This document shows positions 37,110 to 55,823 of a stretch of DNA of 64,000 nucleotides, piece by piece. The DNA lies in NCBI GenBank assembly GCA_900472785.1, contig UCJH01000020.1, forward strand, positions 2,388-66,387. Direction: 5' to 3'. Every line of letters starts with the position of its first letter. The stretch's first letter is position 1. Source of the DNA: Hyphomicrobiales bacterium. GTDB lineage: Bacteria > Pseudomonadota > Alphaproteobacteria > Rhizobiales > Rhizobiaceae. The notes under the pieces were generated by a model. That model did no database searches and was not told the origin of the DNA. It was given only the letters and a program-made list of their open reading frames with translations. The translations under genes were made by a program, and so were the position numbers.

Positions 37110-37127
37110 GCTATAGATATTATTAAT
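37110..37127 (+). promoter_or_regulatory. AT-rich regulon element, copy 1
   Basis: GCTATAGATATTATTAAT, 33 bases upstream of the binding-protein start at 37161. It matches the shared spaced pattern CTAT, two bases, A, three bases, TAT, two bases, A that recurs ahead of the other sulfur-island transcription units. This copy ends AT rather than AC. Candidate operator or promoter-overlapping activator site. Confidence 0.5.
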
Positions 37128-37160
37128 TTCTACATTGGTTCGTTGGTCGAAAAGTGGGGT

Positions 37161-38174
37161 ATGATGGATAACGAAGAAAAGTCCGGCTTTGGCCGGCGTG
37201 AATTGCTGAAGCTCTCGGTTCTTGCCGGAACTGTCGCCGCAGGTGCGGGTCTTCTGAGGCCACAGCCGGCCTTTGCGCAGGCAGGCGAGCTTTCGCTCAA
37301 GGGGAAACGCATCGGAATCAGCACGGCGGGAACCGATCATTTCTTCGATCTGCAGGCCTACAACGCGCAGATCGAGGAAGTGAAACGACTGGGGGGCGAG
37401 CCGATCGCCGTCGATGCGGGCAGAAACGACGGCAAGCTTGTCGCGCAGCTGCAGACGCTGATCGCCCAGAAGCCCGATGCGATCGTACAGCTGCTTGGCA
37501 CGCTCACGGTCATCGATCCCTGGCTCAAGAAGGCGCGTGATGCAGGCATCCCGGTTCTGACGATCGACGTCGGATCGACGAATTCGCTCAACAACTCGAC
37601 CTCCGACAACTGGGGGATCGGCAAGGATCTCGCGCTGCAGCTGGTCTCGGATATCGGCGGTGAAGGCAATATCGTGGTCTTCAACGGCTTCTACGGCGTT
37701 ACACCCTGCGCCATCCGATACGATCAGCTGGTCAATGTGGTGAAGTATTTCCCGAAGGTCAAAATCATCCAGCCGGAACTACGCGACGTGATCCCGAATA
37801 CGGTTCAGGACGCCTTTACGCAGATTACGGCAATTCTCAACAAGTATCCGGAAAAGGGTTCGATCAAGGCAGTCTGGTCGGCCTGGGACATACCGCAACT
37901 CGGCGCCACGCAGGCGCTGACGGCGGCTGGCCGCACCGAGATCAAGACCTATGGCGTCGATGGCAGTCCGGAGGTGCTTCAGCTTGTGGCCGATCCGTCC
38001 TCGCCGGCGGCGGCCGATGTTGCCCAGCAACCGGCCGAACTCGGCCGCGTCGCCATTCAGAACGTCGCGCGCCTGCTGGCGGGCGAGACGCTGCCCCGGG
38101 AAACCTACATACCGGCAATCCTCGCCAACAAGGCGAACGTCAAAGAGGTCTCCAAGAAACTCGGCATCGGCTGA
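37161..38174 (+). CDS. Sugar-type periplasmic binding protein with Tat-like signal
   Basis: About 337 residues, type I periplasmic binding protein (Peripla_BP_4). The signal region has GFGRRELLKLSVLAGTV and ends PAFAQA, a twin-arginine-like leader. The mature part includes ISTAGTDHFFDLQAYNAQIEE and VWSAWDIPQLGATQAL. ATG 37161 (or ATG 37164) follows GTGGGG; an upstream TTG is unlikely. It is the first gene of a plus-strand operon with an RbsA-type ATPase and two permeases, and a DszA-type monooxygenase lies downstream. The regulon element in front and the monooxygenase behind suggest a sulfur-containing ligand rather than an ordinary sugar; this is inference. Confidence 0.9.
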   Translation: MMDNEEKSGFGRRELLKLSVLAGTVAAGAGLLRPQPAFAQAGELSLKGKRIGISTAGTDHFFDLQAYNAQIEEVKRLGGEPIAVDAGRNDGKLVAQLQTLIAQKPDAIVQLLGTLTVIDPWLKKARDAGIPVLTIDVGSTNSLNNSTSDNWGIGKDLALQLVSDIGGEGNIVVFNGFYGVTPCAIRYDQLVNVVKYFPKVKIIQPELRDVIPNTVQDAFTQITAILNKYPEKGSIKAVWSAWDIPQLGATQALTAAGRTEIKTYGVDGSPEVLQLVADPSSPAAADVAQQPAELGRVAIQNVARLLAGETLPRETYIPAILANKANVKEVSKKLGIG

Positions 38175-38194
38175 CATTGAAGCTTCTCTATCTT

Positions 38195-38227
38195 CGTCTG
38201 GGCGCTTCCGTGCCCAGACGTTTTTTT
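38195..38227 (+). terminator. Intrinsic terminator/attenuator after binding-protein gene
   Basis: Perfect 9-bp stem CGTCTGGGC/GCCCAGACG (38195-38203 and 38212-38220) with an 8-base loop, followed directly by seven T's (38221-38227). It is 20 bases after the binding-protein stop and 32 before the ATPase start. It should terminate most transcripts, leaving read-through for the transporter genes. This is the best-formed terminator in the window. Confidence 0.85.
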
Positions 38228-38258
38228 CTTCAAGCAGAAATGGATATTGGAGGTCGAT

Positions 38259-39800
38259 GTGAGCCAACCATCTCCGCAGGGCGCAACGGCGCTTGCCTTG
38301 AATATTCGGGGTGCCGTCAAGCATTTCGGCGGCGCGCGCGCCCTGTCCGGTGCCTCGCTTGCCGTCCGCCGCGGTACGGTTCACGGTCTCGTCGGCCAGA
38401 ACGGCGCCGGAAAATCCACGCTGATCAAGCTGCTCGCCGGACTGCACACGCTGGATGAAGGGGTGATCGAGATCGAGGGGCAGGCCCAAGACACCTTGAC
38501 GCCACACCTCGCAGAGGAACTCGGCATTCATTTCATTCATCAGGACCGGCTTCTTGTGCCTACATTCACTGTCGGCGAGGCCCTGTTTCTCGGCCGCGAA
38601 CCGCGTATTGCGGGAACGCCGTTTCTTGACAGGCGCGCCATGCAAAGGCAGGCGGCCGCGATCCTCGACCGCTATTTCGGTATACGCCTGCCGAACAGTG
38701 CCCTGATCGCCGATCTCAGCACCGCCGAAAAACAGATCGTCCAGATCACACGGGCCCTTCTTCACAGTCCGAAGATCCTCGTCTTCGACGAGCCGACGGC
38801 CGCACTGGTGCGCCGGGAAGCCGATATCCTCTTCAGCCTCATTCGACGACTGAAGGAGGAGGGGATCACGATCATCTATATCTCGCACTATCTTGGCGAG
38901 ATCGAAGCGCTTTGCGATACCGTGACCATCCTGAGAAACGGTATCGATGTGGCGACGCTCGCGGTTCGCGATACGTCCGCAGCCGCCATCGCCTCGCTGA
39001 TGATCGAGCGCGACATCGAAGAAATGTTTCCGAAGCGCACGGTCGCAATCGGCGATCCTGTCCTGTCGGTCAGCCGTCTATCTTCTCCGGGCAAGTATCA
39101 CGATATTTCCTTCACCGTGAGGCGAGGCGAGGTCCTAGGTGTGACAGGCCTTCTTGGTTCTGGCGCAAAGGAGCTTCTCCGCACGCTTTTCGGGCTTGAA
39201 CCAGCACTTTCGGGCGAAATTCTTGCCGGCGGCAAGGCCGTGCGCTTCAAACGGCCGTCGGATGCCGTGCGCGACCATCTGGCGCTGGTGCCGGAAGATC
39301 GGCGTGGTAACGGCGTTGCGCTCGACCTGAGCGTGACGGAAAATACCACGCTTGCCGGTTTGAAGCGTTTTACCCGTCTGGGATTTCTCGATCCGGCTCG
39401 CGAACGGGCGGAGGTCGATGGGCTGATCGAAAGGCTGCAGGTCAAGACGAGCGGGCGGGACGCGCTTTTGCGGGCGCTATCAGGCGGCAACCAGCAGAAG
39501 GTGGCGATCGCCAAGTGGCTGAGCCGCCAGTCAGAGATTTATCTGCTCGACGAACCGACGGTCGGTGTCGATGTGGGCTCGAAGGTCGAGATATACAAGC
39601 TGATCGGCGAGCTCGCGGAGCGCGGCGCAGGCGTACTCGTCCTGTCTTCGGATCTCGCGGAGCTTGTCGGGATTACGGACCGTATTCTGGTTCTTTTCCG
39701 CGGGCGTGTCGTGAAGGAATTCGTTTCATCGGACACATCACCGGATGCCGTGCTCGCAGAGGCAACCGGCTCGCTGGAAGGACGCCGCCATGTCGGTTGA
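38259..39800 (+). CDS. Sugar-type ABC transporter ATP-binding protein (two ABC domains)
   Basis: About 513 residues, RbsA-like. First domain: Walker A GQNGAGKS and Walker B LVFDEPTAALV. Second domain: degenerate Walker A GLLGSGAKELL, signature LSGGNQQK and LLDEPTVGVDVGSK. GTG 38259 is the start because GGAGGTCGAT immediately precedes it; a TTG 12 bases earlier is inferior. It overlaps the first permease gene by 11 bases. Confidence 0.93.
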   Translation: MSQPSPQGATALALNIRGAVKHFGGARALSGASLAVRRGTVHGLVGQNGAGKSTLIKLLAGLHTLDEGVIEIEGQAQDTLTPHLAEELGIHFIHQDRLLVPTFTVGEALFLGREPRIAGTPFLDRRAMQRQAAAILDRYFGIRLPNSALIADLSTAEKQIVQITRALLHSPKILVFDEPTAALVRREADILFSLIRRLKEEGITIIYISHYLGEIEALCDTVTILRNGIDVATLAVRDTSAAAIASLMIERDIEEMFPKRTVAIGDPVLSVSRLSSPGKYHDISFTVRRGEVLGVTGLLGSGAKELLRTLFGLEPALSGEILAGGKAVRFKRPSDAVRDHLALVPEDRRGNGVALDLSVTENTTLAGLKRFTRLGFLDPARERAEVDGLIERLQVKTSGRDALLRALSGGNQQKVAIAKWLSRQSEIYLLDEPTVGVDVGSKVEIYKLIGELAERGAGVLVLSSDLAELVGITDRILVLFRGRVVKEFVSSDTSPDAVLAEATGSLEGRRHVG

Positions 39801-40821
39801 CGTATCCTTCACACCTACCCTTGGTGCAGAGAACGCAGCGCCGCAATCCAGGCGCCGCAGCTGGGGCGGTCAGGCCGCCGCCATCGCGCTACGGGGTGGT
39901 TCCTTCGTGGCTTTCGCAGCCATTCTCCTTTATTTTTCGCTGGCAGCACCATTTTTCTTCACGCTGGGAAACATCGGCAACGTGCTGGGGCAATCGGCGA
40001 TCCTCGGGGTGTTGGCGATCGGCCTGACGGTTGTCATCATCGCCGGCGGCTCCAACGTCGTTACCGGCGGCATAGACCTCTCGGTCGCCGCCAATATGGG
40101 ATTTAGCGCCGCCGTCTATGCCAGCGTAATTCAGCTCGGCTATGGTGACGGACCGGCGGTCCTCGCCAGCCTTTCAACCGGCGCGCTCATCGGTGCCGTC
40201 AATGCTTTCGCGGTGGTCGTCGTCGGTGTCGTCCCACTCCTGGCGACGCTTGCCGTCATGAATGTCGTGGCGGGACTGGAGCTGGTGCTGACCCAGAACA
40301 CTGTTGTTCCCGCGACCACCGACTTTCTATCGTTCCTTTCTGCCGCCGGGCCTTTCGGCCTGCCGGTGCTCGCTTATGGTCTTCTCGCTTTCACCGCCGT
40401 TGCAACGGCGGTTGTCCAGTTCACCCCGACGGGTCTGCGACTGTATGCAACAGGCGAATTTCCGGATGCGGCCCGCGCCGCCGGTCTCCCGGTCAGGCGG
40501 CTTATAGCCGGATCGTTCCTTGCAAGCGGTGTCTGCGCGGGACTGGCCGGCATCCTGTCGGTTTCTTATCTGAGCGGCAGCACGACCGGTGCCGGGGACA
40601 TGCTCCTGCCGGTCGTCGTGACGGCCCTTCTCGGCACGGTATTTTCGCGCCGGCTTGTCCCAACCATCACCGGCACATTGCTTTCGGCGCTGCTTGTCGG
40701 CTTTCTGGTGAACGGCTTCCAACTCATGAATATTTCCAGCACGCTGGTGAATGGCGTCCAAGGGCTCCTGATCATTCTCGTGGTGTCCGCGACCACGCTT
40801 CTGCGCAGACAGGAGGCCTGA
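39790..40821 (+). CDS. Ribose-type ABC transporter permease
   Basis: 343 residues, RbsC/BPD_transp_2 family, with a ~35-residue cytoplasmic leader and then eight or more hydrophobic segments. VTGGIDLSVAANMG (~residue 94) is the family motif, and ATGEFPDAARAAGLPV the ATPase-contact loop. GGAAGGACG precedes ATG 39790, inside the end of the ATPase gene. It pairs with the next gene to form the channel. Confidence 0.92.
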   Translation: MSVDVSFTPTLGAENAAPQSRRRSWGGQAAAIALRGGSFVAFAAILLYFSLAAPFFFTLGNIGNVLGQSAILGVLAIGLTVVIIAGGSNVVTGGIDLSVAANMGFSAAVYASVIQLGYGDGPAVLASLSTGALIGAVNAFAVVVVGVVPLLATLAVMNVVAGLELVLTQNTVVPATTDFLSFLSAAGPFGLPVLAYGLLAFTAVATAVVQFTPTGLRLYATGEFPDAARAAGLPVRRLIAGSFLASGVCAGLAGILSVSYLSGSTTGAGDMLLPVVVTALLGTVFSRRLVPTITGTLLSALLVGFLVNGFQLMNISSTLVNGVQGLLIILVVSATTLLRRQEA

Positions 40822-40825
40822 ATTC

Positions 40826-41824
40826 ATGCCCTCAACTATTCTATACGGCGGCGCAAGCCGTGGTCGGCACCTTCTGGATCACCTCGTCCGGTATGCGCTC
40901 ATCGCGGCGATCGTCACGGTCTTTGCGGCTTTTTCCGCAGCGGCGCCGACCTTTCTCGCACCTGCGAACCTGCAGAGCATTCTCGTCAACAATTTCACCT
41001 TGCTCGCCATCGTCGCTATCGCCATGACATTTGCCGTTTCGGCCGGCGGCATCGATCTCTCGGTGGGAACGGCCATCGATTTTGCCAGCTTTACCTTTGT
41101 CTCCCTCGTGCTTGCAGGGCAACCGGTTCCGCTGGCCGTGCTCGCCGGAATCGCAAGCGGCGCGCTTGTTGGGGTCTTCAATGCCGCCCTCATCGCCGGT
41201 ATCGGCATTTCGCCGTTCCTGGCAACGCTTGGCACCCTCTTCATCGGGCGCAGTCTGCAGCAGCTTCTCACCAATGGCGGCAATCCCGTCTATCTTCCAC
41301 CTGCCGGCGTTCCAGAGGCATTCCGGTTCATCGGTCATGGAACTGTCTTCGGCATTCCCTTTCCGCTTGTCGTGGTCTTTCTCGTGATCGTCGGCAGTGG
41401 CGTTGCGCTGTCGAAAACGCGCTTTGGTCGCGTCGTCACCGCGATCGGTATCCAGACCAGCGTGGCGCGCTATTCGGGTGTTGCGGTGCCGGCGCACATC
41501 GCCGTCACCTATGTTTTGACCGGTGCGGTCGCGGCCATCGCCGGACTGATCCTGACGTCGACGGTGACCGTGTACATTCCCTCATCCGGCAACGCCTTCC
41601 TGCTCAATGCCATCGGAGCGACATTTATCGGCACGACCCTCAGCCCGCTCGGACGCCCCAATATTCCCGGGACCGTACTCGGTGTTCTTCTCCTGAGCAT
41701 CGTCGCCAACGGGTTGCTGTTGACCGGCCTGAACTTCTACTGGCAACAGGTCGGCACGGGCCTCTTGATCTTTGTGGTTCTGTCGATCAGCTTCATCAAT
41801 CAGAAAGCCAAGCGACGGGCGTGA
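40826..41824 (+). CDS. Ribose-type ABC transporter permease
   Basis: 332-residue partner permease of the same family, with SAGGIDLSVGTAIDF near residue 72 and a loop ending SVARYSGVAVPAH. AGGAGGCC gives a good ribosome site four bases after the previous stop codon. Two different permeases per system is a common arrangement in rhizobial carbohydrate importers of this class. Confidence 0.92.
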   Translation: MPSTILYGGASRGRHLLDHLVRYALIAAIVTVFAAFSAAAPTFLAPANLQSILVNNFTLLAIVAIAMTFAVSAGGIDLSVGTAIDFASFTFVSLVLAGQPVPLAVLAGIASGALVGVFNAALIAGIGISPFLATLGTLFIGRSLQQLLTNGGNPVYLPPAGVPEAFRFIGHGTVFGIPFPLVVVFLVIVGSGVALSKTRFGRVVTAIGIQTSVARYSGVAVPAHIAVTYVLTGAVAAIAGLILTSTVTVYIPSSGNAFLLNAIGATFIGTTLSPLGRPNIPGTVLGVLLLSIVANGLLLTGLNFYWQQVGTGLLIFVVLSISFINQKAKRRA

Positions 41825-41911
41825 TTTCCGGCTTGCTTCCCGCGGCGCCTGCAACGGTCAACGTGGCATATCCGGATCGCGCAGACCTTTGAACTTCATG
41901 CAAGGACTAAC

Positions 41912-43273
41912 GTGGCCAGACCTATCCAGCTCTACGCCTTCGACATGAATTGCGTCGGGCACATCAATCACGGCCTCTGGACGCATCCGCGCGACAGTTC
42001 GCTGCGCTATACCGACCTTGACTACTGGACCGATCTTGCGAAAACCGCAGAGCGGGGAAAGTTCGATGGGATATTCCTTGCGGATATCGTCGGCGTCTAC
42101 GACGTCTATCAGAACCGCCCGGATGCAGCCATTCGTGCCGCCGCGCAGATCCCGGTCAATGATCCGCTGATTCCCCTGTCTGCGATGGCGCTCGTGACCC
42201 AGCATCTCGGCTTCGGGGTGACGGTCAACACAACATATGAGCCCCCCTTTCTCTTCGCGCGCCGGATGTCGACGCTCGACCATTTGACGAAGGGCCGGAT
42301 CGGCTGGAACATCGTCACCGGCTATCTCGACAGCGCTGCCCGCAGCATGGGACTGGCGCGACAGCCCGAGCACGATGCCCGATACGAGGCCGCCGAGGAG
42401 TATCTCGAAGTCCTCTACAAGCTCTGGGAGGGCAGTTGGGCGGATGATGCCGTTCTGCGTGACCAGAAAGGGCGCGTGTTCGCCGATCCCGCGCGGGTCC
42501 GCGCCGTTCGGCATGAGGGGCAGCACTATCGGGTCGATGGCATCCACCTCAGCGAGCCCTCGCCGCAGCGGACGCCAGTGCTGTTTCAGGCCGGGGCCTC
42601 CAGCCGGGGCCAGGACTTCGCGGCACGCCACGCCGAAACTGTTTTCGTCGCCAGTTCATCGCCGAAATCGGCACGTGTGCTTGTCGATGGCCTGCACAAG
42701 CGCGCTGCCGAGCTGGGTCGATCGGGTGGTGCAATCAAGGTGCTGAACCTGGTGACGGTCGTTACCGGTCGTACGGAGCGCGAGGCGCAGGAAAAGGTCG
42801 AGGACTATCGACGACATGCCAGCGCCGAAGCGTCGCTTGCGCATTACTCGAGCTCGATCGGTATCGATCTTTCACAGTTTGCGCTGGATGAGCCGATCCT
42901 CGACACGCAAACGAATGCCAATCAATCCGCTCTTGCCGCTCTGACAGGGGGACGGGAAGGAGCGACGATGCGGCAGGTCATTGATCAGATGGTGCTCGGG
43001 AGCCGGCAGAAGCCGATTGTCGGTAGCCCGGAACAGATTGCCGATCATTTCCAGACATGGATGGAGGAGGGCGGGATCGATGGTTTCAATCTTGCCCGGA
43101 CGGTTGCGCCGGAGAGCCTGACGGATTTTGTCGATCTTGTGGTGCCGGTGCTGCAGGAGCGCGGCCTGTTCAAGCACGATTATGCGCCGGGCACCCTGCG
43201 GCAGAAACTGTTCGGCGGAGATACGGGACGCCTGCCCGAAAATCACCCGGCTGCGGCCTACCGGTTCCGATAG
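41912..43273 (+). CDS. FMN-dependent monooxygenase, NtaA/SnaA/DszA family
   Basis: 453 residues of the bacterial luciferase-like superfamily. AFDMNCVGHINHGLWTHP, LDYWTDLAKTAERGKFDGIF, the flavin region TLDHLTKGRIGWNIVTGYLDSA and LSEPSPQRTPVLFQAGASSRGQDFA identify the NtaA/SnaA/DszA group, which includes dibenzothiophene-sulfone and dimethyl-sulfide monooxygenases. It needs reduced FMN from a separate reductase; the likely partner is encoded at 55159. GTG 41912 is preceded by AAGGACTAAC. It lies 87 bases after the importer genes on the same strand, so the imported compound may be its substrate. It is close kin to the protein at 52192. Confidence 0.9.
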   Translation: MARPIQLYAFDMNCVGHINHGLWTHPRDSSLRYTDLDYWTDLAKTAERGKFDGIFLADIVGVYDVYQNRPDAAIRAAAQIPVNDPLIPLSAMALVTQHLGFGVTVNTTYEPPFLFARRMSTLDHLTKGRIGWNIVTGYLDSAARSMGLARQPEHDARYEAAEEYLEVLYKLWEGSWADDAVLRDQKGRVFADPARVRAVRHEGQHYRVDGIHLSEPSPQRTPVLFQAGASSRGQDFAARHAETVFVASSSPKSARVLVDGLHKRAAELGRSGGAIKVLNLVTVVTGRTEREAQEKVEDYRRHASAEASLAHYSSSIGIDLSQFALDEPILDTQTNANQSALAALTGGREGATMRQVIDQMVLGSRQKPIVGSPEQIADHFQTWMEEGGIDGFNLARTVAPESLTDFVDLVVPVLQERGLFKHDYAPGTLRQKLFGGDTGRLPENHPAAAYRFR

Positions 43274-43288: not shown

Positions 43289-43945
43289 TCAGGCCCGGTG
43301 ATCGATACGGGCGACAAGACGGTCGCCCAGCCACTGGATCCCGCAAACGATCACAATGAGAACGATGACGACCGCGATCATCACGCCGGTCTCGAAACGC
43401 TGGTAGCCGTAGCGGATTGCCAGATCTCCGAGGCCGCCGGCGCCGATGGCACCTGCCATGGCCGATGCGCCGATCAGAGTGACAAGCGTCACGGTAAAAC
43501 CGGCGACGATGCCCGGCAGAGCTTCCGGCACCAGCACCTCGCGGATGATGGTCCAGCGATTGCCGCCCATGGCGCGGACGGCTTCGATCAGGCCGCGATC
43601 GACTTCCCGGAGCGAAACCTCCGCGATCCGGGCGTAATAGGGTGTAGCAGCGATCGCCAGCGGTACGATAGCCGCCCAGGTTCCGAGCGCCGTTCCGACA
43701 ATCAGGCGGGTGACGGGAATGAGGGCGACCAAAAGGATGATGAAGGGCACCGAGCGAAAGCCGTTGACGATCGCGCCGAGCAGCCGGCTGATCCAGAGAT
43801 TTTCGGCGATGCCGCCGCGATCGGTGGCAACGAGTGCTAATCCGAGCGGCAGGCCGGCAATCAGCGAAATCAGGCCTGACGCGCCGGTCATCAGCAGGGT
43901 CTCCCAGATCGAACGGAGAAGCAGATCAAACAGGACGGGCGTCAT
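43289..43945 (-). CDS. metI: Methionine-type ABC transporter permease
   Basis: About 218 residues with five to six membrane segments and the EAA loop EAVRAMGGNRWTIIREVLVPEALPG (~140-165) typical of MetI. ATG 43945 has GGAGG nine bases upstream; a TTG six bases earlier is unlikely. The start lies inside the end of metN, so the two are coupled. It is third in a minus-strand metQ-metN-metI operon that converges with the DszA-type gene. Confidence 0.93.
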   Translation of the reverse strand: MTPVLFDLLLRSIWETLLMTGASGLISLIAGLPLGLALVATDRGGIAENLWISRLLGAIVNGFRSVPFIILLVALIPVTRLIVGTALGTWAAIVPLAIAATPYYARIAEVSLREVDRGLIEAVRAMGGNRWTIIREVLVPEALPGIVAGFTVTLVTLIGASAMAGAIGAGGLGDLAIRYGYQRFETGVMIAVVIVLIVIVCGIQWLGDRLVARIDHRA

Positions 43946-45008
43946 AACCAAGGACCTCCACGCGAGCCGAGCGGCCCTTCAAGAATTGCAGAACGGAGTC
44001 CAGACGAGACGGATCAGGCACGCCAATGAAGAATCGCGCAACCGGTTGCTCCTGGATGTGGTCGATGCCGCCATGGATCAACCGGAAGGCATGCGGCAAT
44101 GCAGCCGAGAGATCGGCAAACAGCGGCGCGTTGGCGTCCGGCCCGGCCAGATCGACGCTGAGTACCGCTTCGCCGACCGGGTTCTGGGTAAGGCTTTGGC
44201 CAATATGATCGGGCAGTTGCGGCCGGATGGTGTTCAGGAGGCTTTTCGTGGTTTCGCTTCGTGGATCGGCAAAGACCGACCAGACCGCTCCTTCCTCGAC
44301 GATGCGCCCGCCGTCGATGACCGCGACCCGATCGGCGATGTTGCGCACTACTTCCATCTCATGGGTGATCAGGAGAATGGTGAGGTCGAGCTTTTTGTTG
44401 ATGTCCTTGAGAAGCGTCAGGATCGCATGGGTGGTCTCCGGATCAAGCGCCGATGTCGCTTCATCCGAGAGAAGCAGGGCGGGTCTTGCGGCCAGTGCGC
44501 GGGCGATGCCGACACGCTGCTTCTGCCCACCGGAAAGCGACGAGGGATAGGCCCTTGCCTTTTCCGAAAGCCCGACCAAGTCCAGCAGTTCCGCCGCACG
44601 TTGCAGCCGGGCGGCCTTCGGCAGGCCTTCGATCTTCAACGGCAGGGCGACATTTTCCTCGACCGTCTTGGCCGACAGCAGATTGAAGTGCTGAAAGATC
44701 ATACCGATCTTGCGCCGGAGCGGCTGCAACTGGCTCTCCGAAAGGCCGGTGATGTCGCGGCCCTCGATAAGGACCTGCCCCGAATCGGGCCGTTCCAGCC
44801 CGTTGAGGCAGCGTATGAGCGTGGATTTGCCGGCACCGCTGCGACCGATGATGCCCAGAATTTCGCCTTTGCGGACGCTAAGCGAAACCCCATCAAGAGC
44901 CGCCGTCTTGCCGAAGTGGCGCCTGACATCTATCAAGCTGACGACATCCGGCCTTTCCTGGGCATCTCGAAGCGTGGCAATTGGGGCCACGTTGGTGTGG
45001 GAATTCAT
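43926..45008 (-). CDS. metN: Methionine-type ABC transporter ATP-binding protein
   Basis: About 360 residues. Walker A GRSGAGKS, signature LSGGQKQR, Walker B LLLSDEATSALD and H-loop THEMEV lie in the first ~240 residues. The C-terminal ~80 residues form the NIL/ACT-like domain through which methionine inhibits MetN proteins. ATG 45008 has AAAGGACG upstream. The surrounding genes suggest it may carry methionine, methionine sulfoxide or another sulfur compound. Confidence 0.94.
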   Translation of the reverse strand: MNSHTNVAPIATLRDAQERPDVVSLIDVRRHFGKTAALDGVSLSVRKGEILGIIGRSGAGKSTLIRCLNGLERPDSGQVLIEGRDITGLSESQLQPLRRKIGMIFQHFNLLSAKTVEENVALPLKIEGLPKAARLQRAAELLDLVGLSEKARAYPSSLSGGQKQRVGIARALAARPALLLSDEATSALDPETTHAILTLLKDINKKLDLTILLITHEMEVVRNIADRVAVIDGGRIVEEGAVWSVFADPRSETTKSLLNTIRPQLPDHIGQSLTQNPVGEAVLSVDLAGPDANAPLFADLSAALPHAFRLIHGGIDHIQEQPVARFFIGVPDPSRLDSVLQFLKGRSARVEVLGYDARPV

Positions 45009-45111
45009 GGAACGTCCTTTCCGCTTGCGCGGCAATCGTGGTCAATGCCAAAGGCGGCCCGGACGTAAAGCCCGACGACCGCCTCGACAATGTGTTTGTA
45101 CCTGGTGCGTA

Positions 45112-45960
45112 TCAGTATGCGCTGATGCCGGTACCCTTGTAGACGCGATCGAACTCGGCCTTGACCGTTTCGTTCTGGTAGGCTGATACAAGGGTCTTCA
45201 CCCAGGCTTCCTTCTCGTTGCCTTCCTTGACTGCAATGAAGTTGCGGTAGGGGTTGTCGTTAACCGGCTCCTGCGCAATGCGGTTTTCCGGTGTCAGACC
45301 GCTTTTCAGAGCCCAGTCGGTGTTGACGACGGCGCCATCCAGATCCTCGATGGCGCGGCCAACAACGCCGGCATCCAGTTCCTTGATCTCGATCTTCTTC
45401 GGATTCTCGACGATGTCGGCGATCGTTGCCAGAATGCCGGTGCCGTCCTTCAGCTTGATCAGTCCCTCATTCTGCAACACGCGCAGGGCGCGGCCCTCGT
45501 TCGACGGATCGTTCGGGACGCCGATGACCGCACCTTCCGGAAGGGCAGCGATTTCGGTAAATTTCTTCGAATAGAGGCCGATCGGCCAGACGCCGGTGTA
45601 GCCGACGGGAACGATCTTGTAGCCGTGCGTCTTGATCTGGTTTTCAAGATAGGGGAGATGCTGGAAGGCATTGGCGTCGATCTCGCCACGGTCGAGCGCT
45701 TCGTTGGGTTGCGTATAGTCGTTGAAAACCACGGTTTCGATGGTCAGGTTCTGTTTGGCCGCCTCAGCCGTGACGACGCGCCAGACGTCTTCGTCCTCGC
45801 CGCTGATGATGCCGACCTTGATCGATTTTGCCTCCTGGGCAAAGGACGTGTCAGGGAGCGAGGAGACCGTGACGGCGAATGTCGAGGCGAGCAGGGCCGC
45901 AAGCGCTGTGCGGCGCGACAGCGTTGTCGCCTTGAAAAGGGATGTGATAATGTTGCTCAT
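45112..45960 (-). CDS. metQ: Methionine-type periplasmic binding protein (NlpA family)
   Basis: 282 residues. The signal peptide spans ~1-42 (SRRTALAALLASTFAVTV, ending TSFAQEA). There is no lipobox cysteine, so unlike enterobacterial MetQ it should be a soluble periplasmic protein. The mature domain carries VGIISGEDEDVWRV, DANAFQHLPYLENQ and VNTDWALKSGL, the NlpA/MetQ ligand-site motifs. It is the first gene of the operon, and a regulon element lies at 46127, 167 bases upstream. Confidence 0.92.
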   Translation of the reverse strand: MSNIITSLFKATTLSRRTALAALLASTFAVTVSSLPDTSFAQEAKSIKVGIISGEDEDVWRVVTAEAAKQNLTIETVVFNDYTQPNEALDRGEIDANAFQHLPYLENQIKTHGYKIVPVGYTGVWPIGLYSKKFTEIAALPEGAVIGVPNDPSNEGRALRVLQNEGLIKLKDGTGILATIADIVENPKKIEIKELDAGVVGRAIEDLDGAVVNTDWALKSGLTPENRIAQEPVNDNPYRNFIAVKEGNEKEAWVKTLVSAYQNETVKAEFDRVYKGTGISAY

Positions 45961-48768: not shown

Positions 48769-48797
48769 GAACCAACCGACCAATGCTGCAATAATTA

Positions 48798-48815
48798 GTC
48801 TATAGAATATATAGG
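48798..48815 (-). promoter_or_regulatory. AT-rich regulon element, copy 3
   Basis: On the minus strand it reads CCTATATATTCTATAGAC, 29 bases before the ATPase start at 48768. It matches copy 4 at 13 of 18 positions and has visible dyad arms (CTATA and TATAG). Confidence 0.55.
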
Positions 48816-49035
48816 TATTTAAGGCGCGCCAGCCTGTCTGCCGAAAGAGGCTTCCAAACTTTTGCGCGTCGCAACAAATTCGTTCTGGCCGGACGCCTCG
48901 TTGCGCAACAACCGACCGCGGATGTCGGTGTTCCATGTTGCGTCGTCGCGATTGCCTGTTCTGCCAAGCTTCCCGTTCGGAGATGAAATTTCTCCAGAGA
49001 CGATCAAAAACGGAAGCGGATATTTTCATATAAAA

Positions 49036-49053
49036 CCTATAAAAAATATATAC
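49036..49053 (+). promoter_or_regulatory. AT-rich regulon element, copy 4
   Basis: CCTATAAAAAATATATAC, 63 bases before the binding-protein start at 49117. It is used here as the reference copy: copies 2, 3, 5 and 7 each match it at 13 of 18 positions. Confidence 0.55.
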
Positions 49054-49116
49054 TAATATTGTGGATCCCGAGATGGATCGACGCGCTATTTGAAGTGATC
49101 AAGAAGGGATCAGACA

Positions 49117-50163
49117 ATGCGACATCTTTTTTCGGGACTGGCGTCCGCTGCATTCATAACGTTTGGTCTGATGGGCAGCGCCCATGCCGACGGCCTGCCC
49201 GGCGCGCCTGCGCCGTTCGACAAGGGCGGGGTGAAGGTCGCGCTGATCGCTTATATTTCGGGCGGGGATTTCTTCCAGGCCTACCAGGCCGGTGCCGAGG
49301 CTCAAGCCAAGGCGCTGGGGATTGATCTGCGGGTGTTTCCGGGTAAGCAAAATGCCGCCGAACAGCGCGAGCAGATCAGCCAGGCCATCAATCTCGGTGT
49401 CCAGGGCATTGTGATCGACCATGGTCAGCCGGAAGCGATCAGCGATGTGGCGCAGCAGGCGGTTGACGCCGGCATCAAGGTCGTGGCGTTCGACGTCAAC
49501 CTCAACAACAAGGCCATCCCGCAGGTCGAGCAGAGCGACCACGAATTGTCGCGCCTTGCGCTCGAGCAGGTCGTCAAGGACAACGGCACCAGCTTCAATG
49601 CCGGCTATGCCTATGTCGCGGGGTTTGCGCCGCTCGACCGCCGCAACGAGGTCTGGGAGAAATTCAAGGCCGAAAACAAGGGTGTCGTCGAAAAGGCAAA
49701 GTTCGGCGTTGTCAACGACACGACCGCGACCAGCACCGCCGATCAGGCGAAGGCGGTGCTGACGGCCAATCCGGATATCGGTGTCGTCTTCGCGCCCTAT
49801 GACGAATTCGCCCGCGGCGTGAAGCTGGCCGCCGCCGATCTCGGCATCTCCGGCAAGCTGAAGATCTATTCTGCCGATGTCTCGACGGCCGATATCCAGG
49901 AAATCGTCGAGGAAGGCAGCCCTTGGGTTGCCACCGTTGCGACCAACCCTGCCGTCGTCGGTGCGGTCTCCGTTCGCGCCGTGGCGCTCCAGATCGCCGG
50001 CCAGGACGTTCCGGCCCAGATTCTCGTGAAGCCGGCATTGTTGACCCAGGCACAGCTGCGCGAAGCCGGTGTCAAGTCGATCGAGGAATTGGCGGCCAAG
50101 GTGCCGGCGTTCAGCGAAAGTGATGCAGTCACCGCGGACTGGATCCCCGCCAAGCTGTACTGA
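49117..50163 (+). CDS. Sugar-type periplasmic binding protein
   Basis: 348 residues with a Sec signal peptide (~1-24, ending GSAHA) and a Peripla_BP_4 domain: VALIAYISGGDFFQAYQAG, GIVIDHGQPEAISDVAQQAVDAG and VVFAPYDEFARGVKLAA. AAGGGA precedes ATG 49117. It is the probable ligand receptor for the ATPase/permease pair encoded divergently at 48768-46235. Position inside the sulfur island and the regulon elements on both sides point to a sulfur-bearing ligand; this is inference. Confidence 0.9.
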   Translation: MRHLFSGLASAAFITFGLMGSAHADGLPGAPAPFDKGGVKVALIAYISGGDFFQAYQAGAEAQAKALGIDLRVFPGKQNAAEQREQISQAINLGVQGIVIDHGQPEAISDVAQQAVDAGIKVVAFDVNLNNKAIPQVEQSDHELSRLALEQVVKDNGTSFNAGYAYVAGFAPLDRRNEVWEKFKAENKGVVEKAKFGVVNDTTATSTADQAKAVLTANPDIGVVFAPYDEFARGVKLAAADLGISGKLKIYSADVSTADIQEIVEEGSPWVATVATNPAVVGAVSVRAVALQIAGQDVPAQILVKPALLTQAQLREAGVKSIEELAAKVPAFSESDAVTADWIPAKLY

Positions 50164-50279: not shown

Positions 50280-50738
50280 ATGCTGACAAAAAAGGGCAAG
50301 TATGGGCTGAAGGCCCTTGTCGATCTTGCGCATCTCAAACCGTCGGAAACCGCTTTCGTGAGCGAAATTGCTCAACGCAACAATATCCCGAAGAAGTTTC
50401 TCGACACCATTCTTCTGGATTTGCGCAAGGCGGGAATATTGCGATCCAAGAAAGGGCCTGGCGGTGGCTACTGTTTGTCGCGCCCAGCATCCGAAATCCA
50501 CATTGGGCAGGTCATCCGTACGCTCGACGGTCCCCTAGCGCCCATTCGCTGCGCCAGCCGGACCGCTTTCGAGGCTTGTGATGATTGTTCTGATCCCGCA
50601 GGCTGTCATGTCCGCAGTTCGATGAGCGATGTTCGCGATGCCATCGCATACGTTCTCGACAATATGACGTTGGAACAATTCGTGACGAGTGACCGAACCG
50701 ATACAGCGGACGTGCACCGCGAAATCCCGGCCATTTGA
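50280..50738 (+). CDS. Rrf2-family transcriptional regulator with four-cysteine segment
   Basis: 152 residues. The N-terminal winged helix (LTKKGKYGLKALVDLAHL, then IPKKFLDTILLDLRKAGIL and GPGGGYCLSRP) is typical of Rrf2/IscR/CymR proteins. The central segment IRCASRTAFEACDDCSDPAGC has four cysteines (spacing 9, 2 and 5), compatible with an Fe-S cluster as in IscR, RirA or NsrR. In the middle of an organosulfur island it is the natural candidate for the factor binding the shared AT-rich elements, sensing cysteine or Fe-S status. ATG 50280; GAAAGAG upstream. Confidence 0.9.
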   Translation: MLTKKGKYGLKALVDLAHLKPSETAFVSEIAQRNNIPKKFLDTILLDLRKAGILRSKKGPGGGYCLSRPASEIHIGQVIRTLDGPLAPIRCASRTAFEACDDCSDPAGCHVRSSMSDVRDAIAYVLDNMTLEQFVTSDRTDTADVHREIPAI

Positions 50739-50835: not shown

Positions 50836-50853
50836 TCTATGTAATTTATATAC
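50836..50853 (+). promoter_or_regulatory. AT-rich regulon element, copy 5
   Basis: TCTATGTAATTTATATAC, 36 bases before the SfnB/DszC-type start at 50890. It matches copy 4 at 13 of 18 positions. Confidence 0.55.
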
Positions 50854-50889: not shown

Positions 50890-52101
50890 ATGAGTGATGT
50901 GCAAATTTTGCGCAATCCCCGGCAAGAGGACGAATTGGCGGCGTTGTTCGCGCGGGCCGAAAACATCTCGGCGGATCTGACGGCACGCGGTGCCGCGCTG
51001 GATGCAGCGGGCAGGCCACCGGTGGAGGAAATCCAGACATTGAAAATGGCCGGGCTGCTCAATGCCCTTCATGGCAAGGACATTGGCGGCAGCGGGATTG
51101 ACTGGGTGTCAGCGCTCCAGCTCGTGCGCATCCTGTCGCGGGGCGAAAGCTCGATCGGCCAGCTTCTCGGCTATCACTATGTCAACAGCCAGTACATCTA
51201 CTGGGGTGCCTCGGATCCGGCCAAGGCAAGGGCACTGGGTATCGAGACGGTCGCCCGCAATCTTTACTGGGGCGCTGCCGTCAATCCGCGCGATCCCGGC
51301 CTCGTACTGTCCCGCAATGGGGATGGCTACGTTTTGAACGGCCGCAAGACCTTCTCGACAGGCGCGCGCGTGTCAGATCGCATCAATGTCAATGCCACGA
51401 TCGAGGGCAAGATCGCAAATTTCGTCATTCCGACGGACCGTCCCGGCTACATTACCAATGATGATTGGGACAATATCGGTCAGCGCTTGTCCGATAGCGG
51501 CAGTGTCGAATTCCGTGATTTTCCGGTGACGCAGGACGATTTCATTCAGTCGCCTGCCGATCCCCAGGATAAGCCGCCGGTGCTGGCGACGTTCAACACG
51601 CCGCTGATCCAGCTCGTTTTCGTCAATTTTTATCTTGGAACGGCTGAGGGCGCCTTGAACGCGGCCCTTGACTATGTGCGCACGACAACGCGTCCGTGGA
51701 TTACATCCGGTGTGGAGAAGGCATCCGACGACCCATACATCCTCGAGCGTATCGGTGAATATCGCTCGACCCTCAAGGCCTCCATTGCTCTTGCCGACCA
51801 GGCAGCGAGCGTCGTGCAGAATGCGCTCGCCCGCGGCAGATCTGTCACCGAGTGGCAGCGCGGCGAGGCGGCGATCGAGGCCTATGAAGCCAAGGTTCAC
51901 TCCACCCATGTCGCGCTCGACATCACTTCCAAGGTGTTTGAACTGATGGGTGCCCGCGCTACGGCCGCGCATTACGGCTTCGATCGCTACTGGCGCAATG
52001 TGCGGACACACACCTTGCACGACCCCGTCTTCTACAAGGCCCGCGAAGTCGGCGACTTCGCACTGAACGGGCGGATTCCCGAGGTCAGTCTCTACAGCTG
52101 A
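50890..52101 (+). CDS. SfnB/DszC-type flavin oxidoreductase (acyl-CoA-dehydrogenase fold)
   Basis: 403 residues with acyl-CoA dehydrogenase N-, M- and C-domains, but the C-terminal YWRNVRTHTLHDPVFYKAREVG is the signature of dibenzothiophene monooxygenase DszC and SfnB sulfur-acquisition proteins. No acyl-CoA dehydrogenase catalytic glutamate motif is visible. It probably uses reduced flavin and O2 to oxygenate an organosulfur compound. ATG 50890 (GGAGA upstream) is chosen over the two preceding GTG codons. It is a monocistronic unit ending at a bidirectional terminator. Confidence 0.88.
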   Translation: MSDVQILRNPRQEDELAALFARAENISADLTARGAALDAAGRPPVEEIQTLKMAGLLNALHGKDIGGSGIDWVSALQLVRILSRGESSIGQLLGYHYVNSQYIYWGASDPAKARALGIETVARNLYWGAAVNPRDPGLVLSRNGDGYVLNGRKTFSTGARVSDRINVNATIEGKIANFVIPTDRPGYITNDDWDNIGQRLSDSGSVEFRDFPVTQDDFIQSPADPQDKPPVLATFNTPLIQLVFVNFYLGTAEGALNAALDYVRTTTRPWITSGVEKASDDPYILERIGEYRSTLKASIALADQAASVVQNALARGRSVTEWQRGEAAIEAYEAKVHSTHVALDITSKVFELMGARATAAHYGFDRYWRNVRTHTLHDPVFYKAREVGDFALNGRIPEVSLYS

Positions 52102-52125
52102 TCTCGAAGGTCGAATACTGGACCA

Positions 52126-52169: not shown

Positions 52170-52191
52170 GCTGCACTAACAAACTTTGCCC

Positions 52192-53592
52192 TCAGTTTTG
52201 TCCCGATGCGATCCTCGAATTCCGTCCCGAGAGATCGCGGAAGTTGACGGCGGGGTGCGGTGCCTGAAGCCTCGGGCCCTGGCCGAAGAGCTTTTCACGC
52301 AGCGTGCCTTTTGCGTAATCGGTCTTGTAGACGCCGCGCTTCTGCAGTTCGGGCACCAGCAGATCGACGGTGTCCTCGAAGGTTTCCGGCGTGACGGCAT
52401 AGGCGAGGTTGAAGCCGTCGACATCCGTATCCTCGACCCATTCCTGCAGCAGGTCGGCCACCGTCTGCGGCGAGCCGACGAAGACCGGGCCGAAGCCGCC
52501 GATGCCGACCCAGTCGGCCATTTCACGCACGGTCCAGACCTTGTCCGGGTCAATCGTGGTGAAGGTTTCGACGGCGGATTGGACGGCGTTGGTATAGCGG
52601 TGGCGCAGGGGTTCGTCCGGTGCGAACTGGCCGAAATCGATGCCGGTCCAGCCGGAGATCAAGGTCAATGCACCCTCGTAGGAGACATGCTTGCGATACT
52701 CGTCGAACTTCTTCTTCGCTTCCGCGTCGGTCTCACCGAGAATGACGGTCTGCAGGTTGAAGGCGAGAATATCGCGCGGATTGCGCCCGGCGCGCTCTGC
52801 GGCTTCGCGGACGTTTGAAACGTAGCGCTTCAAAACGGGCTTGGATGGCGCTGCGACGAAGATGCATTCGGCATTGGCGCCGGCGAAATCCTTGCCCCGG
52901 CTCGATGCGCCCGCCTGGTAGAGAACCGGCGTGCGCTGTGGCGACGGCTCACTCAGATGGATGCCGGGAACCTTGAAATACTGGCCGTCATGGCGGATGG
53001 GATGCACTTTTTCCGGATGCGTGAAGATGCCGCTTGCCCGATCCCGGACCACCGCGTCTTCCTCCCAGCTGCCTTCCCAGAGCTTGTAGCAGACCTCGAG
53101 ATATTCCTCGGCGACGTCGTAGCGGTCGTCATGCTTGATCTGTTGCGCCTGGCCGATGTTGAGCGCGCCGGAGTTCAGATAGGAGGTAACGATGTTCCAG
53201 CCGACGCGGCCCTTGGTCAGGTGATCAAGCGTCGAAATCCGCCGTGCGAAGGTGTAGGGATGCTCAAAGGACAGGGACGCCGTCAAACCGAAACCCAGAT
53301 GCTCGGTGACATAGGCCATGGTCGGCACGAGCTGCAGCGGATCGTTCACGGGAACCTGTGCGGAATGCTTCAGCGCCGCGTTGGTGTTGCCGTTCAGCAC
53401 GTCATAAACGCCGAGAACATCGGCTATGAACAATCCGTCGAACTTGCCGCGCTCCAGTGTCTTGGCAAGATGCACCCAGTAGTCGAGATCCTTGTATTTA
53501 TGTGACTGGTCGCGCGGATGCGTCCAGAGGCCCGGCGACTGGTGACCGACGCAATTCATGTCGAAGGCATTCAGGCGTATTTCGCGGCTCAT
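52192..53592 (-). CDS. FMN-dependent monooxygenase, NtaA/SnaA/DszA family
   Basis: 466-residue luciferase-like monooxygenase with the same landmarks as the protein at 41912: AFDMNCVGHQSPGLWTHP, TLDHLTKGRVGWNIVTSYLNSG and LSEPSPQRTPVLYQAGASSRGKDFA. It follows the SfnB/DszC-type gene at 53613 by 20 bases on the same strand. DszC- and DszA-like genes are thus co-transcribed, as in the dibenzothiophene pathway, where DszC makes the sulfone and DszA opens it. The substrate here is more likely a simple sulfide or sulfone. The ribosome site is weak. Confidence 0.9.
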   Translation of the reverse strand: MSREIRLNAFDMNCVGHQSPGLWTHPRDQSHKYKDLDYWVHLAKTLERGKFDGLFIADVLGVYDVLNGNTNAALKHSAQVPVNDPLQLVPTMAYVTEHLGFGLTASLSFEHPYTFARRISTLDHLTKGRVGWNIVTSYLNSGALNIGQAQQIKHDDRYDVAEEYLEVCYKLWEGSWEEDAVVRDRASGIFTHPEKVHPIRHDGQYFKVPGIHLSEPSPQRTPVLYQAGASSRGKDFAGANAECIFVAAPSKPVLKRYVSNVREAAERAGRNPRDILAFNLQTVILGETDAEAKKKFDEYRKHVSYEGALTLISGWTGIDFGQFAPDEPLRHRYTNAVQSAVETFTTIDPDKVWTVREMADWVGIGGFGPVFVGSPQTVADLLQEWVEDTDVDGFNLAYAVTPETFEDTVDLLVPELQKRGVYKTDYAKGTLREKLFGQGPRLQAPHPAVNFRDLSGRNSRIASGQN

Positions 53593-53612
53593 GATCGTGC
53601 GTTCCCGGGATT

Positions 53613-54830
53613 TCAGAGGGCGCCGTTGCGCGGCGGCAAGGTGTCGTTCAGGTGATAGTCGCCAACGACGTGATACTTCCAGCGCACGGGGTCATGCAGC
53701 GTGTGCGTGCGGGCATTGCGCCAGTGGCGATCGAGGTTGAGCCCGACCTTGGTCGAGGACGTGCCGGCGAGTTCGAACAGCGTATTGGTAGCCTCGAGTG
53801 CGATTTCGGTGGTCAGCACCTTGGCGCCGGCGACGGCCAGCGTCGCTTGAAGGGTGTTTTCCGCCGTCGGATTGACCTGGGCGACGTCGACCTTATGCCC
53901 GGCTCGCTCCACCAGGGCGGAAGCTGCTTCGAGGCGTATCGCCAGATTGCCGACCTTTGCGATGGTCAATGGGTCCTGCGAGGCCCGCTCGACGCCACTG
54001 TTCATCCAGGGACGAGCCTTGTTGCGGACAAAATCGATGGTTTCCTTGAAGGCTGCGCGCGCAATGCCAAGGTCTATGCCCGCATGGATGATCTGGCCAA
54101 CGGAGCCGATCGTCGTTGCCCGCTCGAAACCACGATGATGACGGACGACTGCATCGGCATTGACGTAGACGTTCTGCAGAACCGTTGTGCCGCTGCCGGT
54201 GGTACGCTGCCCGAAACCGTCCCAGTCGTCGATGATCTGAAGGCCTTCGGTGTTGCGTGGAACGAAAGACATCGTGATCTGGTCTTCCGCGTCTATTGCG
54301 AAGACGACGACCCACTCGGCGAACAAAACGCCCGTTGAATAGAACTTGCGGCCATTGATCCTGTAACCGATGCCGTCGGCGGTGAGGCGCGTGTTGTAAT
54401 CGCCGACCGTTTTCGTTCCCGTTTCAGACAGCGCATTGCCGAACCGGTCTCCCGCCAGCGCCCGGCCGAAAAAGAACCTCTTCTGCTCTTCGCTCCCGTC
54501 GGTACGCAATGCTTCGAGAATGTAGAAATGATTCTGCGGAATCTGGCCGATCGAACCGTCGGCCTCGGAGAGAATAGCAATGATCTCGGCCAGGACGGCA
54601 TTCGAGACATCTGCGCCGCCATATTCGTCCGGCACTGTTATTCCGAGCAATCCGGACTGCGCGAGAAGGTCGATCTCATCATAGGGAATGATACGATTGA
54701 TATCGCGCTCGCTCGCGCGTTCGGAGAAGACGGTTGCGAGGCGGCGCGCCGCCTCCAGGGCTTCTTCTTCCGTGGTGAGCCTGTGTGCCGTGGGGCGAGT
54801 GCGCTCGGAAAGATGGGACACAGTTGCCAT
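53613..54830 (-). CDS. SfnB/DszC-type flavin oxidoreductase (acyl-CoA-dehydrogenase fold)
   Basis: 405 residues from ATG 54830 (GGAAGCGA upstream). Acyl-CoA dehydrogenase fold with TVPDEYGGADVSNAV, SIGQIPQNHFYILEAL, SETGTKTVGDYNTRL and C-terminal HWRNARTHTLHDPVRWKYHVVG, the DszC/SfnB signature. It is a distant paralogue of the protein at 50890. First gene of a two-gene operon with the DszA-type monooxygenase; regulon element copy 6 lies ~70 bases upstream. Likely role: flavin-dependent S-oxygenation of an organosulfur compound. Confidence 0.88.
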   Translation of the reverse strand: MATVSHLSERTRPTAHRLTTEEEALEAARRLATVFSERASERDINRIIPYDEIDLLAQSGLLGITVPDEYGGADVSNAVLAEIIAILSEADGSIGQIPQNHFYILEALRTDGSEEQKRFFFGRALAGDRFGNALSETGTKTVGDYNTRLTADGIGYRINGRKFYSTGVLFAEWVVVFAIDAEDQITMSFVPRNTEGLQIIDDWDGFGQRTTGSGTTVLQNVYVNADAVVRHHRGFERATTIGSVGQIIHAGIDLGIARAAFKETIDFVRNKARPWMNSGVERASQDPLTIAKVGNLAIRLEAASALVERAGHKVDVAQVNPTAENTLQATLAVAGAKVLTTEIALEATNTLFELAGTSSTKVGLNLDRHWRNARTHTLHDPVRWKYHVVGDYHLNDTLPPRNGAL

Positions 54831-55158
54831 GAATCGCTTCCAATCCTGTGAGGGTGGACAATCAGTGCCGGAAAGCCGGCAGTTCAGGAAGGGTGGATAT
54901 TCTATCGATTTTATCGATAAAGAATTTTCTTTCCTCACGGAGGTTTTCAGCCGTCGCCATGGTTGAGCGTCTGACTGAATTTACGCCGCGTGCTTTCGCG
55001 AAGCGCACCTACCGGACGCGATCCACTTCGGATCAATGCCCGAACGACGATTGCCATTCGCAAGCCTTGTCGTCGCCACCCGTTGAGCAGTCGGCATCGG
55101 TTCGAGCAGATAAGCGAACGGTAGACAGCATACCCGCTTTCGCTTTCCGGATCGTCCG
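54831..55158. other. Promoter region between SfnB/DszC-type and flavin reductase genes
   Basis: 328 bases holding regulon element copy 6 and otherwise GC-rich sequence after the flavin reductase stop codon. No gene or clear terminator was seen. Confidence 0.5.
54901..54918. promoter_or_regulatory. AT-rich regulon element, copy 6 (weaker match)
   Basis: TCTATCGATTTTATCGAT keeps all invariant columns of the set (C2, A4, T5, A8, TAT at 12-14, A17) but differs elsewhere. It sits 71 bases upstream of the start at 54830. It also contains overlapping ATCGAT dyads, so it could be a separate site. Confidence 0.4.
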
Positions 55159-55701
55159 TCAGATTTCCGCGAGGAAACGACCGTATTGCCCGCTGTTGTA
55201 GACCAGCGAGCGCCCATCGCCTGTCGAAATCGACAAAACCCGGCCGATGATGATGCCGTGGCTGTGGCGCTCGATGATTTCCTCCACCTCGCAGTCGATC
55301 GCGGCAAGCGCATCGAGCAGGACCGGCGCGCCGCTGGCCAGCGTCGTCCAATTGGCGCCCTGGTAGCGCTCAGCCCCCTTGAGGCCATCCCGGCCGGCAA
55401 AACGTTCGGCGACGTGCTGCTGTTCGACCGACAGGATGTTGACGCAAAAATGGCCGTAGCGGCTGATGACGGGATAGCTGGAAGACGTCCGGTTGATGTT
55501 GACGATCATGGTTGGCGGCTCGACGGACAGGGCTGTTGCCGATGTAACCGTAGCGCCTGTCCTCTCGCTGCCGACGCCTGCGGTCACGACGGAAACGCCC
55601 CCCGACATGCGGCGCATGGCAAGCTTCAGATCTGTATCCCGAGCTGCCGCAACAATGTTCTGGGCAGCCGCATTTTCGCTGGTTCGAAGTGCAAAGGGCA
55701 T
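55159..55701 (-). CDS. FMN/flavin reductase (HpaC/DszD-type)
   Basis: 180 residues with a flavin-reductase-like split barrel. MRRMSGGVSVVTAGVGSERTGATVTSATALSVEPPTMIVNI is the usual N-terminal pattern, followed by GHFCVNILSVEQQHVAERFAGR and a terminal GDGRSLVYNSGQYG. It supplies reduced FMN to two-component monooxygenases, here the SsuD, DszA-type and DszC-type enzymes. ATG 55701 is preceded by AAGGAAA. It is divergent from ssuD with regulon element copy 7 between them. Confidence 0.9.
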   Translation of the reverse strand: MPFALRTSENAAAQNIVAAARDTDLKLAMRRMSGGVSVVTAGVGSERTGATVTSATALSVEPPTMIVNINRTSSSYPVISRYGHFCVNILSVEQQHVAERFAGRDGLKGAERYQGANWTTLASGAPVLLDALAAIDCEVEEIIERHSHGIIIGRVLSISTGDGRSLVYNSGQYGRFLAEI

Positions 55702-55804
55702 CGGGTTTCCTTTTCCAATCTCAGTCCGCGGCACGCTGCTCGTCCATGGATGGGCCGGCCGAAACATCTCAATAAACATGAAACTGCATGCCGATTTTTC
55801 CATT

Positions 55805-55823
55805 GTCAATAAATTTTATAGAC
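55805..55823. promoter_or_regulatory. AT-rich regulon element, copy 7 (near-perfect dyad)
   Basis: GTCAATAAATTTTATAGAC is a 19-bp dyad whose 9-base arms match at 8 of 9 positions. On the minus strand its last 18 bases match copy 4 at 13 positions. It lies between flavin reductase (start 55701) and ssuD (start 55912) and could control both. Confidence 0.55.

Follow-up and report, generated by a model that had tools for sequence, protein, structure and literature searches.

The master repressor of cysteine metabolism in Bacillus subtilis and Staphylococcus aureus is CymR, a member of the Rrf2 family, whose proteins act as dimers. The state of the cysteine pool is reported to CymR by its partner CysK (excerpts of PMC2940859 and PMC9338935). 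In IscR, NsrR and RirA, of the same family, iron-sulfur (Fe-S) binding is marked by three conserved cysteines (excerpt of PMC5863699), and an 11-3-11 repeat is described as characteristic of Rrf2 sites (excerpt of PMC5015018). The window analysed here is the whole stretch of 64,000 nucleotides from a Hyphomicrobiales soil bacterium (Rhizobiaceae; assembly GCA_900472785.1, contig UCJH01000020.1, positions 2,388-66,387 of the forward strand), and it contains seven copies of an AT-rich 18-bp element ahead of genes of sulfur acquisition. These sites are very probably the operators of an organosulfur-scavenging regulon and would be bound by an Rrf2-family dimer, most likely a CymR-like repressor. 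The motif and the regulon are well supported, and the Rrf2 protein is strongly indicated as the regulator.

The occurrence of the seven-copy element in the window is confirmed. All 18-mers listed in the preliminary description lie at its coordinates and on its strands, with C2, A4, T5, A8, T12-A13-T14 and A17 identical in the seven copies and T3 in six; as it had claimed, four of the other copies match the one at 49036 at 13 of 18 positions and the two weaker ones at 11 and 9. Site 1 (37101-37127, where the palindrome 37101-37117 overlaps the 18-mer 37110-37127; matrix score 29.2, centre 37109) precedes the operon of importer 1, site 2 (46127-46144; 25.1) precedes metQNI on the minus strand, and site 3 (48798-48815, 18-mer on the minus strand; 31.4) the ATPase and permease genes of importer 2, also on the minus strand. 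Site 4 (49036-49053; 28.4) lies before the gene of the binding protein SBP2, followed by an Rrf2 gene, site 5 (50836-50853; 28.6) before a DszC-like gene, and site 6 (54901-54918; 23.7) before the sfnB-type gene and NtaA2 on the minus strand. Site 7 (55805-55822, 18-mer on the minus strand; 36.5) is common to the divergent genes of a flavin reductase (minus) and ssuD (plus). The sites occupy six intergenic gaps and, with genes called by codon usage, their edges stand 29-166 bases from the start codons, close to them as had been described. The genes named earlier do lie behind the sites, but the seven transcription units counted then become eight promoters, since site 7 serves a divergent pair.

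The element is an imperfect 17-bp palindrome whose centre falls on position 9 of the 18-mer; it has the form TCTATA-N5-TATAGA in the window and, more generally, TCTAYA-N5-TRTAGA within a 25-bp AT-flanked site (consensus wwwNTCTAYAAAWTTTRTAGANwww). At site 1 the best palindrome starts nine bases to the left of the start first reported. A 29-bp matrix was made from 71 sites that lie in other genomes (69 distinct 29-mers, deduplicated by context), all from fetched stretches (loci L069 and above, L082 left out; G, C and L numbers denote genomes, contigs and fetched loci, G000 being the window's own genome). None of the 71 also occurs in the window or in loci of its own genome, and they were chosen by a pattern that itself derives from the window. 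In this matrix the conserved bases span -12 to +12 round the dyad, that is 25 bp, and the preference for A or T at +-10 to 12 adds information that the window-derived pattern did not contain. This span agrees with an 11-3-11 operator, the link between protein and site being here a genomic one. Second palindrome registers with a shift of nine bases occur at three sites (37109/37118, 49035/49044 and 55814/55823), the shifted ones scoring 18.1 at 37118 (site 1) and 18.5 at 49035 (site 4); such overlapping registers could permit two dimers or cooperative binding.

The same matrix, run over the 64 kb, puts exactly the seven sites on top (23.7-36.5), followed by their own shifted overlaps and then by the next independent place at 3.8, in line with the earlier statement that the window holds no further copy. 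Leave-one-out scans give 15.4-27.2 for the held-out sites and 8.6-11.7 for the best non-site position of the 64 kb. In 200 dinucleotide shuffles of the 6,170 intergenic bases, places at or above 20 appeared at 0.005 per shuffle, with a maximum of 20.6.

The genome and its relatives were scanned with IUPAC patterns, each controlled by the reversed pattern at the same mismatch limit, and the matrix was applied to fetched stretches. The spacing is fixed at N5: the refined pattern TCTAYAWAWTWTRTAGA, with up to three mismatches allowed, matches the genome at 31 places and its reversed control at 9, whereas a spacer one base longer gives 14 matches against 10, near chance. Two loose patterns were dropped, CTATANNNNNTAT as useless (32 matches, 97 for the reversed control) and TCTATANNNNNTATAGA at up to three mismatches (323 matches, 928 for the control, per strand).

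At up to two mismatches TCTAYAWAWTWTRTAGA is found at ten places of the genome, three within the window and seven outside, and five of these seven precede sulfur genes, the exceptions being C97:22847 and C37:15230. The sites C50:7490 and C50:7642 are 338 and 490 bases from an O-acetylhomoserine sulfhydrylase gene (metY), with a carbonic anhydrase-like/NtaA/serine acetyltransferase (cysE) operon on their other side. Two more are on contig C89, one (C89:5328) ahead of an NtaA gene and a permease gene of the ATP-binding cassette (ABC) type, the other (C89:40818) ahead of genes for an MsnO8-type luciferase-like monooxygenase (LLM), NtaA, M20, GNAT and an amino-acid-type ABC system. The latter is a ytm-like operon, resembling the B. 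subtilis ytmI operon, which is under CymR control. The site C84:14612 lies between a taurine-type (tauA-type) ABC operon and a di-haem peroxidase. Two places with three mismatches each, C50:13774 and C113:20915, are ahead of PF13454 genes. The genome scan proposed in the preliminary description as a check thus supports a sulfur regulon.

In the proposed scan of related rhizobia, genes of these kinds again have sites ahead of them. Within the genus, 14 of 26 genomes carry 28 sites at no more than one mismatch, compared with 2 for the reversed control (hand sums). Among 31 fetched loci, most but not all from the same genus, 17 have by the author's reading a neighbour matching a regulon protein of the window's genome: ssuD (in three loci, at 89-90% identity), metY (95%), SBP1 (92%), SBP2 (86%), metQ, ABC genes of ssu type, NtaA types and, weakly, SfnB.

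The preliminary description had deduced a single dimeric regulator, which the genomic evidence supports, yet named none and made no mention of the Rrf2 gene; the probable regulator is encoded within the window. The control that CymR exerts over sulfur genes of Firmicutes prompted a search of the genome for Rrf2 proteins. The gene at 50280-50738 (plus strand; 152 aa) lies downstream of SBP2 after a gap of 116 bases, is probably behind site 4, and belongs to the Rrf2 superfamily (PF02082, 129.4 bits, cut-off 30, E 1.2e-37; TIGR00738, 112.7 bits, cut-off 73.3). Among solved structures it is closest to a BadM/Rrf2-family protein (4cic) and to CymR (2y75, E 1e-16). A second copy in the genome is a core-genome paralogue on contig C141, 79% identical, in which the stretch RNNIPKKFLDTILLxLRxAGILRSKKGPGGGY differs from the window copy at the two x positions only. 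A weaker site (22.8; L173 5355-5375) is located between secDF and the C141 gene, 0.6-0.7 kb upstream of the latter with a small open reading frame (ORF) between; with the window copy behind site 4, both copies may therefore be autoregulated. A homologue of 72-82% identity is present in all 26 genomes of the genus, in G013 and G018 in split or partial form. In G001 the core homologue is flanked by secDF on one side and a kpsF-like gene on the other (Pfam), and genes of the same sizes surround it in the other members of the genus that were viewed.

Across 199 genomes of the family, a homologue (E<=1e-30) is present in 36 of the 41 with a near-perfect site and in 58 of the 158 without (Fisher p 3e-9). 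A site is found within 10 kb of the homologue gene in 18 of the 36 genomes against 0.32 expected (17 of 35 once the genome of the window is set aside), a test that omits the five site-bearing genomes lacking a homologue (G075, G125, G163, G206 and G210); the 18 come from more than 12 genera, and the genomes are not independent. By hand counts, the 36 genomes hold 58 sites against 2 control matches, the five site genomes without homologue 8 against 6, and all 199 together 66 against 25.

In G028 and G046 the homologue is placed among organosulfur genes with sites. A survey of 16 loci, picked for holding both a site and an Rrf2 gene, gave by the author's reading a clear sulfur-type protein match in seven (L238-L241, L243, L244 and L248), weak matches only, of 27-34% identity, in six (L245-L247 and L249-L251) and none in three (L236, L237 and L242). 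On a Sinorhizobium americanum plasmid the homologue stands between ssuD, a flavin reductase gene, sulfate/sulfonate transporters and a TauD-type gene (best site 29.3), in S. meliloti pSymB and S. medicae beside sfnB-like and flavin adenine dinucleotide (FAD) protein genes (best sites 24.0 and 17.1), and on a Shinella zoogloeoides plasmid beside tauA (best site 23.6). A 43%-identical relative in G036 adjoins a sulfate-binding protein gene. One family of small proteins, each of about 108 aa, recurs near the sites and the Rrf2 gene in seven of the 16 loci (L237, L245 and L247-L251), and its L245 member is assigned to the BRA0787 family (NCBIfam).

The window Rrf2 shares with CymR the family and a regulon of sulfur acquisition genes, and CymR is by sequence its nearest named sulfur regulator among solved structures. 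It differs in being alphaproteobacterial and in scoring under the NCBIfam CymR equivalog cut-off (NF047409, 84.4 bits against 195), and the aligned region of CymR holds none of its four conserved cysteines. With IscR, NsrR and RirA it has in common the family and a cluster of cysteines at the equivalent place in the protein, and it would share an extended palindromic operator; it is under their equivalog cut-offs (81.3/207.55, 59/182 and 46/193 bits, respectively), and where neighbours of the sites were identified, they are mostly sulfur genes, not iron genes. RirA is another gene of the same genome (294.2 bits), with the cysteine spacing C-X7-C-X5-C, unlike the four invariant cysteines of the window Rrf2 subfamily. 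These (C91, C100, C103 and C109) are present in 26 of 26 aligned homologues as C-X8-C-X2-C-X5-C, with the last two one residue closer in one clade, so that the protein has at least three conserved cysteines where Fe-S Rrf2 regulators have their cluster-binding loop. For another desulfurising bacterium, Rhodococcus qingshengii IGTS8, an Rrf2 protein (the CymR/Rrf2 candidate) has likewise been put forward as a sulfur regulator; it is actinobacterial, was proposed from proteomics and homology, and has no sulfur genes reported in its immediate neighbourhood in the excerpted text (PMC8557817).

In the favoured reading, a dimer of the window Rrf2 (and/or of its C141 paralogue) would read the 25-bp palindrome directly. 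With sulfur or cysteine plentiful it would stay on the promoters in the fashion of CymR, and under sulfur limitation it would be released, allowing joint production of the importers, the two-component flavin monooxygenases with the flavin reductase, and metQNI. Repression is an assumption carried over from CymR and RirA. The four invariant cysteines suggest that sensing would go through them, a labile Fe-S cluster or a thiol switch being plausible from the protein sequence; by analogy with CymR, a CysK-like partner is equally possible. The wider proposal, that an undescribed Rrf2 subfamily controls a sulfur-starvation regulon across much of the Rhizobiaceae and senses sulfur directly by the four-cysteine site (Fe-S occupancy or persulfide), is tentative and falls somewhat short of an even chance. 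If true, the IscR way of sensing would be joined to a CymR-type regulon, and the ribose-type importers would be organosulfur importers.

Text searches of open-licence literature turned up no account of the motif, none of an Rrf2 regulator for sulfur in Rhizobiaceae or of a master regulator for organosulfur scavenging in rhizobia, and nothing touching this regulon under the half-site letters; they showed only a taurine-dependent promoter of Sinorhizobium meliloti (PMC4254191). The present finding supplies the gene, the operator and a list of targets and, with relatives in S. meliloti, makes the question directly testable; it also hints that orphan flavin monooxygenases, FAD proteins and ABC importers have functions in sulfur use.

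Several observations weigh against an Rrf2-controlled sulfur regulon. Twelve of the 26 genomes of the genus lack any site at one mismatch or fewer though all hold the homologue, 58 family genomes carry it with no near-perfect site, and a plasmid cluster of Rhizobium sp. BT03 has sites but, over the 19.7 kb that were read, no Rrf2 gene. Fourteen of the 31 fetched loci by the author's reading lack a regulon-type neighbour, including two with rhodanese and two with an XRE-cupin gene. In the window's genome, the strong sites C97:22847 (38.1) and C50:52570 (21.9) are in convergent gaps, and C37:15230 (21.5) and C55:105574 (19.0) are without identified neighbour genes and were counted as not before a sulfur gene. 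Against the motif as more than chance, column-shuffled 18-bp matrices average 1.8 clusters at or above 13, with at least one in 300 equal to the true seven, and the loose patterns are less frequent in the genome than their reversed controls. Finally, the sites have no fixed position relative to simple -35/-10 patterns (39 unidirectional of 79 oriented promoters), and repressor and activator are therefore not readable from site position.

Among the alternatives, the one that survives best assigns the sites to the core C141 paralogue only, the window copy having another specificity or being redundant. This is unlikely: G001, G003 and G015 do carry sites though their homologue was seen at the core place only, and in the tree the window copy is not grouped with the core copies, but the tree leaves its own place unsettled, the two copies are nearly the same over the stretch quoted above, and in many genera the site-linked Rrf2 copy is the one near the sites.

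A reading of the sites by a LysR-type (CysB-like) regulator is considerably less probable. The general LysR box is T-N11-A, which CTAT-N7-ATAG would fit, and a GcvA-like LysR gene is present in the window (58965-59867), the only LysR gene considered as linked to the sites; it lies outside their span, adjoining an interrupted gene and IS30, and the linkage of Rrf2 with the sites is far above chance. LysR regulators of sulfur genes do exist (CysL, YtlI and CmbR; excerpt of PMC2940859).

Less credible still is an XRE-cupin regulator, as suggested by a TCGATAAAATTTGTAGA site about 0.2 kb before an XRE-cupin gene in G025 and G010, and by such a gene 3.3 and 4.2 kb from two sites in G002. It was called SutR-like, and on SutR the open-licence literature gave nothing useful. 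A homologue of at least 80% identity occurs in just 3 of the 31 searched genomes besides its source genome, and the candidate was rejected, as the window's genome carries the sites and the best match to the XRE-cupin protein there is 30% identical over about 100 aa. Perhaps the XRE-cupin protein is a second regulator inside the regulon. In locus L095 the site (6005-6021) is just before a small ORF and the XRE-cupin gene (6234-6839), in the two genomes G025 and G010. A mere similarity of AT-rich promoters with no dedicated regulator, to which the half-site (resembling an alphaproteobacterial -10 element) and the column-shuffled matrices that match the true cluster number would point, is refuted for practical purposes by the two-fold symmetry at fixed spacing, the relatives-only matrix and the Rrf2 linkage.

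The genes behind the sites begin with importer 1, a ribose-type ABC system (SBP1, ATPase and two permeases; 37161-41824, plus strand) matched in NCBIfam at family level with none over an equivalog cut-off, followed by NtaA1, an NtaA/DmoA-family flavin mononucleotide (FMN) monooxygenase (41912-43273, plus; TIGR03860 over cut-off). The metQ, metN and metI genes (43289-45960, minus) were identified by NCBIfam matches, MetI scoring above its subfamily cut-off and MetQ just clearing the one set for the MetQ/NlpA lipoprotein subfamily; MetN is a best-match call (342.8 bits, cut-off 499.7). Importer 2, also of ribose type, comprises a permease and an ATPase (46235-48768, minus; family match and gene calls) and its periplasmic binding protein SBP2 (49117-50163, plus; family match). 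The two ribose-type (CUT2-like) importers (37161-41824 and 46235-50163) sit in the sulfur regulon and may carry sugars that contain sulfur, or organosulfur compounds of another kind. Beyond the Rrf2 gene are a DszC/SfnB-like flavin monooxygenase (50890-52101, plus), under the cut-offs of both families, NtaA2 (NtaA/DmoA-family monooxygenase; 52192-53592, minus; TIGR03860 over cut-off), an SfnB-family sulfur acquisition oxidoreductase (53613-54830, minus; TIGR04022, 607.8 bits, cut-off 430.9), the flavin reductase (55159-55701, minus), matching several flavin-reductase families with none over cut-off, and ssuD, an alkanesulfonate monooxygenase (55912-57081, plus; TIGR03565, 610.5 bits, cut-off 518.2). 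Importer 2 keeps its place beside the NtaA2, DszC and SfnB genes in relatives (L089 and L252).

Downstream of ssuD is an FAD-NAD(P)-binding protein (PF13454; 57107-58534, plus). Such proteins or their homologues recur by the sites, in the window, in L053 (10835-13694), in L057 (2885-4330) and in many fetched relatives. The site C97:22847 (L041 5348-5364) has the top matrix score among the scanned own-genome stretches, with no gene start nearby. At the right of the window, a luciferase-like monooxygenase gene (59827-61158) is broken by an in-frame TGA and adjoins the GcvA-like LysR gene and an IS30 transposase gene (62141-63151).

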